From Buchnera aphidicola (Mindarus keteleerifoliae) (GTDB lineage: Bacteria > Pseudomonadota > Gammaproteobacteria > Enterobacterales > Enterobacteriaceae): a DNA stretch of 64,000 nucleotides. Below, in pieces: positions 28,982-32,667 of this stretch. A program made the translations under genes and the position numbers. Each line of letters starts with the position of its first letter. Positions within the stretch are counted from its first letter, which is position 1. The notes under the pieces are model-generated. The model did no database searches and was not told the origin of the DNA. It saw only the letters and a list, made by a program, of their open reading frames with translations. The stretch spans positions 372,001 to 436,000 of the forward strand of contig NZ_CP135027.1 of assembly GCF_039392895.1 (NCBI RefSeq). The letters are read 5' to 3'.

Positions 28982-31528
28982 ATGAATATAACATATCAAG
29001 CAAAAAAAATAGAAAAATATGTCCAGAAATATTGGAAAGAAAAAAAAACTTTTAAAGTTTATGAAAATCCTGAAAAAATAAAATATTATTGCTTAGTAAT
29101 GCTTCCATATCCTTCCGGAAGTTTACATATGGGACATATAAGAAATTACACTATTGGTGATGTGATATCTAGATATCAAAGAATGCTAGGTAAAAATGTA
29201 TTACACCCGATAGGATGGGACGCTTTTGGACTACCGGCTGAAATTGCAGCTATAAAAAATAATACTCATCCTATGGAATGGACATATAAAAATATAAAAT
29301 CAATGAAAAAACAACTAAAAAAAATGGGGTTTAGTTATGATTGGGATAGAGAATTAACTACTTGCAAACCAGATTATTATAAATGGGAACAATGGTTTTT
29401 TACAGAAATTGTTAAAAAAAAATTGGCTTACAAAAAAATTGATCTCGTTAACTGGTGTCCTACTGATAAAACAGTTCTTGCTAACGAACAAGTAATTGAT
29501 GGACTATGTTGGAGATGTCAAACAAGAGTTATTAAAAAAAATATTCCTCAATGGTTTATTAAAATTACTAAATATGCTGAAGAATTGCTAAAAGATTTAA
29601 AAAATTTAAAATTTTGGCCTGAAAAAGTAAAAAATATGCAAAAAAACTGGATAGGAAAAACTATAAATATAGAAATTAAATTAAAGGTTAAAAACTTAAA
29701 TACTATTTTCACTGCTTATATCAAAAACTTAGAATGTATTATGGGCGCAACTTTCATTATCATGTCTACAGAACACAAATTAACTAAATTTTTATCTAAA
29801 GTAGACAGCTCAATCAAAAACTTTATCAATGATAATAAAAATTTTTTTGATAAAGAAAATTTTTTTTTTATGAAAGGAAAGAAAACAAACCTAACTGCAA
29901 TTCATCCTATTAATAAAAAAAAAATTCCAATATGGATAAGTAATTATGTTAAAAATAAAAATAATAAAAAAAGTTTTTATATTGGAATACCTGCTCATAA
30001 TAAGAAAGACTGGACATTTTCTAAGTTTAATCAAATTAAACCTAAATTTGTATTATTAAATCTAAATGGATGTAAACCAAATTTTGGCAATGTTTCTATA
30101 TTAAAAAAGGGATACTTATTTAATTCAAATAAATTTACTGGATTAAGTATTAAAAAAGGATTTAACATCATTTTTAACTTTTTAAAAAATCAAAAAATAG
30201 CTAAAAAGCTAATATCTTATAAATTAAAAGATTGGGGAATTTCGAGACAAAGATATTGGGGAACTCCTATACCGATAGCCATTACAAAAGAAAATAAAAA
30301 TATTTGCATACCTAAAGAATTACTTCCTTTAATTTTACCAAAAAAAAACTCTATATCTTCCAGATCTATTATCATTAATAAAAAAAAGAACGTTTGCGAA
30401 ACGGACACTTTTGACACATTTATTGAATCTTCTTGGTATTATGCAAGGTATACTTGTCCTAAATTCAAACAAGAAATGATTAATTTTGATGCCGCTAAAT
30501 ATTGGTTACCAGTAGACCAATATGTAGGCGGGATTGAACATGCTACTATGCATTTACTATATTTTCGATTCTACCACAAAATGCTTAGAGATTTTAAATT
30601 AGTTCCTTATAATGAACCAGTTATAAGACTTTTGTGTCAAGGAATGGTTTTATCTGATGCTTTCTATTTTTTTAACGAAAAAAAAGAAAAAATTTGGATA
30701 TCTCCCAATGAAATTAATATTTCACGAGATAAAAAGGGAAAAATTATTCAAGCGTATACAAAAAATAAAATTAAAGCATTCCATGCTGGCATGATAAAAA
30801 TGTCAAAGTCCAAAAATAATGGAATAGATCCTGAATCAGTTATAAAAAACTATGGTGTTGATACTTTAAGATTATTTATTATGTTTTCAGCTCCCCCAGA
30901 AATTTCAATTGAATGGAATCCATCTTCTATAAAAGGAATGAGTCGATTTATTCACAAACTTTGGAAGTTTTGTCTTAAAAATATTAAAAATAAAGACTCG
31001 ATTAAAAAAATAAAAGTACAAAATCTCAATTTTTGTCAACAATCATTTTATATTAGCTTAAATCAAACTATCAAAAAAGTTACTGAAAATATAGATGAAA
31101 GACAAACCTTCAACAATGCCATAGCAGCTATTATTAAATTTACGAAAAAAATAATTAATTTTCCTATTAAAGAACCCGAAGATAAATACTTAGTAAGATT
31201 TGCATTAATTAATATCATAAAAATGCTATATCCGTTTATTCCTCATTTTAGTTTTGTTATTCTTGAAAGAATAACTTCCAGAAAAAAAATAGATTTCGTT
31301 AAATGGCCTACGTTCGATAAAAATTTTTTAGAAAAAACAATTTTTCAAATTGTAATTCAAATAAATGGAAAAAAAAAGAAAACATTAAATTTTTTAAAAA
31401 ATGAAAGTAAAAAAAATGTTATTTCTAAAATTTTAAAAAAAAATATTATTGAAAATTTTTTAAAAGAAAAAAAAATAAAAAAAATATTTTTTATTCCTAA
31501 CAAAATAATTAATTTTGTTGTAAAGTAA
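28982..31528 (+). CDS. leuS: Leucyl-tRNA synthetase, editing site degenerate
   Basis: An 848-residue class I synthetase. The synthetic site is intact: HMGH (YPSGSLHMGHIRNYT), the zinc module VNWCPTDK...CWRC, and KMSKS (IKMSKSKNNGIDPE). The C-terminal domain is also kept. The CP1 editing domain is not. The threonine-rich TTRPDT of E. coli (247-252) is IKNLEC here at the same residue numbers, and the universal editing aspartate of GHDQRD (D345) is N340 in AHNKKD. The rest of CP1 is lysine/asparagine-rich with poor similarity. Leucylation should work, but hydrolysis of mischarged tRNA-Leu probably does not. Confidence 0.96.
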   Translation: MNITYQAKKIEKYVQKYWKEKKTFKVYENPEKIKYYCLVMLPYPSGSLHMGHIRNYTIGDVISRYQRMLGKNVLHPIGWDAFGLPAEIAAIKNNTHPMEWTYKNIKSMKKQLKKMGFSYDWDRELTTCKPDYYKWEQWFFTEIVKKKLAYKKIDLVNWCPTDKTVLANEQVIDGLCWRCQTRVIKKNIPQWFIKITKYAEELLKDLKNLKFWPEKVKNMQKNWIGKTINIEIKLKVKNLNTIFTAYIKNLECIMGATFIIMSTEHKLTKFLSKVDSSIKNFINDNKNFFDKENFFFMKGKKTNLTAIHPINKKKIPIWISNYVKNKNNKKSFYIGIPAHNKKDWTFSKFNQIKPKFVLLNLNGCKPNFGNVSILKKGYLFNSNKFTGLSIKKGFNIIFNFLKNQKIAKKLISYKLKDWGISRQRYWGTPIPIAITKENKNICIPKELLPLILPKKNSISSRSIIINKKKNVCETDTFDTFIESSWYYARYTCPKFKQEMINFDAAKYWLPVDQYVGGIEHATMHLLYFRFYHKMLRDFKLVPYNEPVIRLLCQGMVLSDAFYFFNEKKEKIWISPNEINISRDKKGKIIQAYTKNKIKAFHAGMIKMSKSKNNGIDPESVIKNYGVDTLRLFIMFSAPPEISIEWNPSSIKGMSRFIHKLWKFCLKNIKNKDSIKKIKVQNLNFCQQSFYISLNQTIKKVTENIDERQTFNNAIAAIIKFTKKIINFPIKEPEDKYLVRFALINIIKMLYPFIPHFSFVILERITSRKKIDFVKWPTFDKNFLEKTIFQIVIQINGKKKKTLNFLKNESKKNVISKILKKNIIENFLKEKKIKKIFFIPNKIINFVVK

Positions 31529-31663
31529 TACTATTCATATATAAAATGAAATAACTAAATAAATTATTTTTCAATTAATTTTTCTTAAATTACTTAATTT
31601 CTTTTAAAAATATAAAAAATAATCTAATGTTATTTTTTATAAAAATATAAAATATTAACTATT

Positions 31664-32667
31664 ATGTTTAACATAAAAAAAATTTATCTAAATCAAATCC
31701 ATATCATTAATGAAAAAAATTTTTACTACTATTACTTATTAATTGGAAAAGAATTAATTTTATTAGAAGAAGCTAAAAAAAAAATATTCAAAATAGCTAA
31801 AAAAAAACATTATTTTGAAAAAAAAACATTTTTTATTTCGTCAAAATTTAATTGGAACAAAATATTTTTTTTGTTAGAAAACAAAAATATTTTTAACTTT
31901 AAAATGATAATAATATTAATTATAAAAAATGAAAAAAAAATGTTTTTTCTAAAACCTAAGCTTACAAAAATATTTTTTTTATTGAGCAAAAAAAATATAA
32001 TTGTTATTCAACACGATAATTTTTATTATATAAAAAACAAAATTCTTAAAAAAAAAAAGATCTTGGAGGAATTTCAATTTTTTGTTCATTTTCTAATAAA
32101 TCAAACAAAGAATTATGGATGAAAAGAAAAATATTGCTTGTTAATCCAACTTTGTCAGAAAAAGTTCAGACAAAAATACAAAAAAAATATGAAAATAATT
32201 TATCTATTTTTGAACAAATACTAAATATAATAGAACTTTTTTATTTAAAGAACAAAAATATTACATTAGAAGAAATTGATCAATTAGTTGTTAACAATGA
32301 AGAAACGTTCCCTGTAACATGGAGTAATTCGATTCTTTCTGGAGACATAAAAAAATCAGTAAAAATTATAAATGAAATTATATATAAAAAATATAATCCC
32401 TTAAATTTAATTAGATTTTTTCAAAAAGATTTATTACTTTTAATAAAGTTTTTCTTTCAAAATAAAAAAATAGAATTTTTTTTAAAAAAAGAAAATATAA
32501 AAAATAATCGTTTTATATATTTTATGCGTTGCCTTAAAAAAAACGATCTCAAAAAATTATATTTTGCGTTATCATTACTAATTAAAATAGAAATAAATAT
32601 CAAAAGTAATGAAAAAAAATTTTTAATTTGGAGTAAATTACAAAATTTATCTATCTTTCTATCGTAG
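31664..32667 (+). CDS. holA: DNA polymerase III delta subunit HolA, frameshifted at an A11 tract
   Basis: The clamp-loader delta subunit is split over two frames at an 11-A run (32048-32058). The first frame (from ATG 31664) matches the HolA N-terminus: YLLIGKELILLEEA against E. coli YLLLGNDPLLLQES, and FNWNKIFFLL. After the run the homology continues in the other frame as ISIFC (E. coli VQVTC), then KELWMKRK, then ENNLSIFEQILNIIE and TWSNSILSGD. One extra A joins the halves into 334 residues (E. coli 343). The original frame instead runs on to a stop at 32122. Transcript slippage at the A run is the likely rescue. As in E. coli it follows leuS, though lptE is missing between them. Confidence 0.87.

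Follow-up and report, generated by a model that had tools for sequence, protein, structure and literature searches.

In most host-restricted bacteria by far, the editing domains of aminoacyl-tRNA synthetases are reportedly degenerate. Passages of PMC11020763, PMC7373986, PMC10057733, PMC12362246 and PMC11415595 describe such degenerate editing sites, citing Melnikov et al. 2018 (PNAS 115:E11505). Li et al. 2011 described editing-defective leucyl- and phenylalanyl-tRNA synthetases (LeuRS and PheRS) from Mycoplasma, as passages of PMC7373986 and PMC10057733 relate. A passage of PMC7373986 states that the loss of three or more editing activities is not known in any Mycoplasma, whereas in the Buchnera genome analysed here four were apparently lost, judging by sequence. 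Natural loss of editing in a reduced genome, probable for the LeuRS described below, is what it shares with the Mycoplasma LeuRS. The LeuRS of M. mobile reportedly lacks the CP1 domain (its PDB entry, 3ziu, is of 637 aa), whereas CP1 was full length in the LeuRS of this Buchnera.

In E. coli LeuRS, T252 shields cognate Leu-tRNA from hydrolysis (negative catalysis) and D345 promotes catalysis, as set out in a passage of PMC9023258. The T252Y mutant of E. coli LeuRS, in which the discriminator Thr is lost, is described in a passage of PMC11327963 as having lowered proofreading; the same Tyr was found to be natural in both congeners of the Buchnera studied here. The E. coli D345A mutant (PMC4932531) differs from our LeuRS, in which D345 was kept and several pocket residues were changed at once.

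The window is a 64,000-nucleotide stretch of the Buchnera aphidicola (Mindarus keteleerifoliae) chromosome. Its LeuRS has in common with the degenerate synthetases of host-restricted bacteria a small host-dependent genome, replaced editing residues and a retained aminoacylation site, and nothing fundamental sets it apart from them. What the Mindarus-type Buchnera add is detail for each enzyme, including a deletion of the editing domain of prolyl-tRNA synthetase (ProRS). Loss of LeuRS editing here would be a further case of an established phenomenon, and the selective per-enzyme pattern may already have been reported.

The leuS gene and its aminoacylation site

A phmmer search matched the leuS product of the window to E. 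coli LeuRS (3zgz) between residues 4 and 847 (E = 6.9e-269). Similarity from end to end, the HMGH and KMSKS signatures and a CP1 insertion, by which a bacterial LeuRS is recognised, were all present (Table 1), and both signatures were unaltered, as the initial annotation of this DNA had stated. An AlphaFold2 model of the window LeuRS was of moderate quality (pLDDT 71.4, pTM 0.57) and had a strand at residues 241-247 and helices at 250-255 and 341-349; its best PDB matches were E. coli LeuRS structures.

Table 1. Features of the leuS gene, with positions given in the window
Feature	Position (bp)	Strand	Basis
leuS, leucyl-tRNA synthetase, 848 aa, unbroken frame	28982..31528	+	ORF and phmmer
HMGH signature, aminoacylation site, unchanged	29126..29137	+	
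CP1 editing domain, unshortened at 192 aa (residues about 224-415)	29651..30226	+	
Residues 247-252, IKNLEC replacing TTRPDT; T252 discriminator is Cys	29720..29737	+	gapless alignment
Residues 327-331, N-N-K-K-S for E. coli Y330-G-T-G-A334	29960..29974	+	MAFFT; gap placement in the loop uncertain
Asn340, at the position of E. coli Asp342 and not of Asp345	29999..30001	+	
Asp343, aligned to catalytic E. coli Asp345, retained	30008..30010	+	
KMSKS signature, unchanged	30797..30811	+	

At the 14 positions that we take to make up the synthetic site, all 14 residues of the window LeuRS were those of E. coli. Twelve of these positions (40, 42, 43, 80, 493, 496, 499, 527, 530, 532, 533 and 537) were unchanged in 63 of 63 small-genome relatives, whilst positions 41 and 534 were kept in 0.63 and 0.90 of them, respectively. 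On this assumed list the window LeuRS shows the combination that marks a degenerate synthetase, a conserved synthetic site with replaced editing residues, and the enzyme probably still charges tRNA-Leu. The same counts, which concern first-shell residues, argue against an alternative in which editing was lost and a stricter first-step selectivity of the window LeuRS keeps the translation of Leu codons accurate; a re-tuned synthetic site was looked for at the 14 positions and no change was seen. In its favour, some enzymes that have lost an editing domain show higher substrate specificity, for example bacterial-type ProRS without the domain (a passage of PMC11415595). We regard a stricter LeuRS as unlikely, and prefer to read the enzyme as one that probably still charges tRNA-Leu and has a decayed editing site.

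Downstream of leuS, the interval up to holA (31529-31663) contained no lptE frame, although E. coli carries lptE there. The holA gene (DNA polymerase III delta; 31664-32667) was split between two frames that overlap, one of 152 aa and one of 182 aa. It is a single frame of 338 aa in genome G002 and a single frame, open for at least 328 aa, in the congener G001. A young pseudogene is one possible reading of the split holA, and a fault in the assembly is another.

The CP1 editing site

The CP1 domain shared 26% identity with its E. coli counterpart, compared to 50% for the remainder of the window LeuRS. Gapless alignment with E. coli agreed with the initial annotation that TTRPDT at residues 247-252 had become IKNLEC, such that the T252 discriminator was replaced by Cys. 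The alignment also revealed the loss of the 331-GTG-333 turn, which is N-K-K in the window LeuRS and was absent from the observations of that annotation. The Asn at 340, by comparison, had been taken for a replacement of D345. Alignment of E. coli PGHDQRDYEF with PAHNKKDWTF of the window placed N340 at D342 and D343 at D345; one of the two key residues had been misassigned, as the catalytic Asp is still present. T247, T248, R249, T332 and D342 were all substituted, and one of eight LeuRS pocket residues was kept in this genome. Of the features that go with editing competence, the window LeuRS had neither the Thr-rich motif with T252 nor the GTG turn with D342, but it did have the equivalent of D345.

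The LeuRS frames of the two congeners were open, at 844 and 847 aa, and were 74-76% identical to the window LeuRS. They read IKKLEY and IEKLEY at 247-252, which places Tyr at 252 in both, and both share with the window LeuRS the Asn that replaces D342 and the retained D345. One of six core residues was kept in all three Mindarus-type genomes. As the congeners show similar replacements in open frames, the change in LeuRS holds across the lineage and does not stem from a sequencing error. The possibility that Cys252 is a conserved new nucleophile was ruled out because the congeners carry Tyr.

The initial annotation had allowed that a shifted alignment might restore a Thr-rich motif, and a pattern search of the CP1 domain of the window LeuRS found no TTRPDT-like motif elsewhere in it. 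Together with the gapless alignment across E. coli 247-252 and 336-348 and the same state in the two congeners, this argues against an artefact of alignment or sequencing that hides a working editing site elsewhere in CP1. Beyond the earlier slip over D345 there was nothing to favour such an artefact, and we consider it so improbable as to be negligible.

Spread among small-genome relatives

The family search covered 295 genomes sampled from a larger group, 70 of which were at or below 700 kb; the LeuRS of 7 were left out. The LeuRS alignment comprised 84 rows (82 loci, the window and E. coli) and represented 63 genomes of 750 kb or less, 18 of at least 3 Mb and 3 of intermediate size. The lifestyle of the relatives was inferred from size, and those of 3 Mb or more, E. 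coli included, were taken as free-living. The editing residues were surveyed in relatives, as the initial annotation had proposed. Of the 63 small-genome LeuRS, 40 lacked T252, 52 lacked D342 and 17 lacked D345; all three residues were present in 18/18 large-genome relatives.

T248, T252, D342 and D345 were found together in 4 of the 63 small-genome relatives, and T248 (or Ser), T252 and D345 in 15 of them. G165 belongs to the latter, having T248 and D345 as well as T252, which is also present in G179. Within the set of 13 compared genomes described below, all four LeuRS core residues were kept in two, G046 (with Ser at 248) and G020. On the tree described next, G012 kept 6/6 core residues. 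Decay of the LeuRS editing site is common but uneven among small-genome relatives, and the Mindarus-type genomes are among the more decayed.

On a tree that left CP1 out and held 71 of the 84 rows, as 13 large-genome rows were dropped, the state at 252 changed at least 11 times, counted irrespective of direction. Such counts are rough because the search was quick, the model plain and many rows of unlike composition. The 40 replacements of T252 were L (12), I (7), Y, F, E and N (3 each), C, S, M and D (2 each) and A (1). We make no claim of selection for bulky blocking residues at 252, as AT-biased mutation could yield the same counts.

D345 was kept in 46/63 small-genome relatives (0.73), compared to a mean of 0.38 for CP1 positions that are invariant in large-genome relatives. 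The retention of its equivalent in the window and in so many relatives, well above the CP1 mean, would suit a residual or altered LeuRS editing activity that persists via Asp343 and perhaps Cys252, as would a CP1 domain of 192 aa. The small genome G032, whose LeuRS also has Cys at 252 in an otherwise near-intact pocket, points the same way, and the retention of core residues in G046, G020, G012, G165 and others means that LeuRS loss is not uniform, which we count, along with the retention of D345, against our main reading. Set against residual editing are the Tyr at 252 of both congeners, which leaves Cys252 not conserved, and the replacement of the five residues from T247 to D342 listed above; moreover, an active site without T252 is expected, from a passage of PMC9023258, to expose cognate Leu-tRNA to hydrolysis. 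We find persisting activity quite improbable. Loss of post-transfer editing by LeuRS is likely given the decay seen in the window, in the congeners and in many small-genome relatives.

Several LeuRS in the alignment were unusual in other respects. L101 and L113, from genomes of roughly 1.76 and 0.94 Mb, already had Asn for D342 and kept TTRPDT or TTRHDT; D342N may be an early, mild step of LeuRS decay. The small-genome LeuRS of L161, L158, L155 and L160 had a CP1 reduced to 146-166 aa, which may be a stage on the way to losing it altogether. The leuS genes of L157, L185 and L186 (contigs of 0.26-0.30 Mb) contained 19-24 in-frame TGA codons, which is consistent with TGA being read as Trp.

Other editing sites and expected errors at Leu codons

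Seven enzymes with editing sites were compared in 14 hand-chosen genomes and E. coli, and the fractions kept were calculated over 13 small genomes, including that of the window. The pocket residue lists used are our assumption, except for T252 and D345 of LeuRS and D342 of IleRS. In this genome the pockets of IleRS (7/8; TTT, H333 and D342 kept, T246 replaced by Ser), ValRS (10/10; TTRPET, the GTG turn, K277, D283 and D286 kept) and AlaRS (4/4; HxxxH and CxxxH kept) were nearly untouched. ThrRS kept 0/4 editing-site residues and PheRS beta 1/5. The ProRS reading frame (L291, L293), preserved across the deletion, was 436 aa, and a short linker stood where E. coli has residues about 219-406. The editing-domain deletion was not shared by the congeners, whose ProRS frames were longer (574 and 567 aa); despite this length, they gave no match to PF04073. 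Shortened ProRS frames were also found in G205 (440 aa) and G020 (415 aa). With E values of up to 1 allowed, this genome had no match to PF04073 (the YbaK/ProRS editing domain family), and its two congeners had none either. DTD (PF02580), sought with E values of up to 0.1, was found in none of the 13 small genomes; G018, a relative with a large genome, was positive for both.

The fraction of pocket residues kept was then set beside that of other shared editing-domain positions over the 13 small genomes. The pocket was kept far above its surroundings in IleRS (0.94/0.46), ValRS (0.99/0.53) and AlaRS (1.00/0.52, with most rows partial). It was kept below them in PheT (0.15/0.35) and in ThrRS (0.04/0.48, over 12 genomes as the ThrRS of G186 was not found; the G205 row was without its first 43 residues). 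For ProRS the values were 0.35/0.22; two pocket residues were used, both of which are kept in G032, and the pocket evidence is weak beyond the three shortened genes. In LeuRS the values were 0.41/0.38, and its pocket residues had not been lost at a higher rate than the remainder of CP1 (p = 0.57); the pocket therefore looks unprotected and not specifically targeted. The CP1/body divergence ratio of LeuRS was 1.48-2.05 among the three Mindarus-type genomes and 1.94 between E. coli and G018. Faster evolution of CP1 as a sign of relaxed constraint was rejected, because the ratio does not exceed what large-genome relatives show among themselves. Both this and the even decay of the pocket weigh against our main reading.

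By sequence, the editing activities of LeuRS, ThrRS, PheRS and ProRS appear to be gone in this genome, and purifying selection seems to hold the sites of IleRS, ValRS and AlaRS. Three spared and four decayed sites in one genome are hard to square with drift alone. The change in LeuRS is by itself expected in a host-restricted genome and the contrast within the genome is more informative: seven editing sites have been subject to shared drift and mutation bias, with three nearly untouched versus four apparently gone, which lets one ask which translation errors cells cannot tolerate.

We consider it likely that the LeuRS of the window can still charge tRNA-Leu whilst its CP1 site for post-transfer editing has decayed, as one part of a selective dismantling of editing in this genome. 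In this, the loss of editing in a host-restricted bacterium that the initial annotation proposed stands as the best reading, without its D345 assignment and with the addition that the state is specific neither to the strain nor to the enzyme. CP1 was probably retained because it is built into the LeuRS fold and its domain movements. With little or no post-transfer editing, mischarged tRNA-Leu, chiefly norvalyl-tRNA-Leu, would be left unhydrolysed. The competitors of IleRS, ValRS and AlaRS, which would have kept editing, are abundant proteinogenic amino acids that may be poorly rejected at the first step, and the main competitor of LeuRS would be a non-proteinogenic by-product, a plausible reason for its loss.

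The initial annotation had named Ile, Val or norvaline as errors at Leu codons. Passages of PMC4932531 on E. coli D345A LeuRS bear out norvaline, found at 8-9% of Leu positions at low oxygen, and not the other two, Ile misincorporation being not measurable and Val only about 0.007%. The same source gives a Leu/norvaline discrimination factor of 1169 for E. coli LeuRS. From the D345A data, norvaline is the error to expect, provided that Buchnera forms it. An IlvA-type C-terminal domain (PF00585) was not found in 13/13 small genomes, with G018 positive, which fits 2-oxobutanoate coming from elsewhere. A broader proposal, which we offer tentatively and think rather doubtful, is that at least four of seven cis-editing sites are disabled together (Leu, Thr, Phe and Pro) with DTD and YbaK not found, which would go past the two-enzyme limit given for Mycoplasma, that selection holds Ile, Val and Ala editing nearly invariant, and that, with leuABCD on the plasmid, host 2-oxobutanoate could lead to norvaline at Leu codons and a constitutively ambiguous proteome. 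Among the matches listed in a literature search, judged by title and the start of the abstract, no paper was dedicated to LeuRS editing or norvaline in Buchnera; in the sections of PMC6389857 retrieved, norvaline and Buchnera occur in unrelated passages.

The genome as a whole was of the reduced, host-dependent kind, at 551,674 bp in three contigs with a chromosome of 542,511 bp. The second contig encoded repA and frames that we read as leuABCD, and was a pLeu-type plasmid with 99.8% identity to NZ_CP135025.1.
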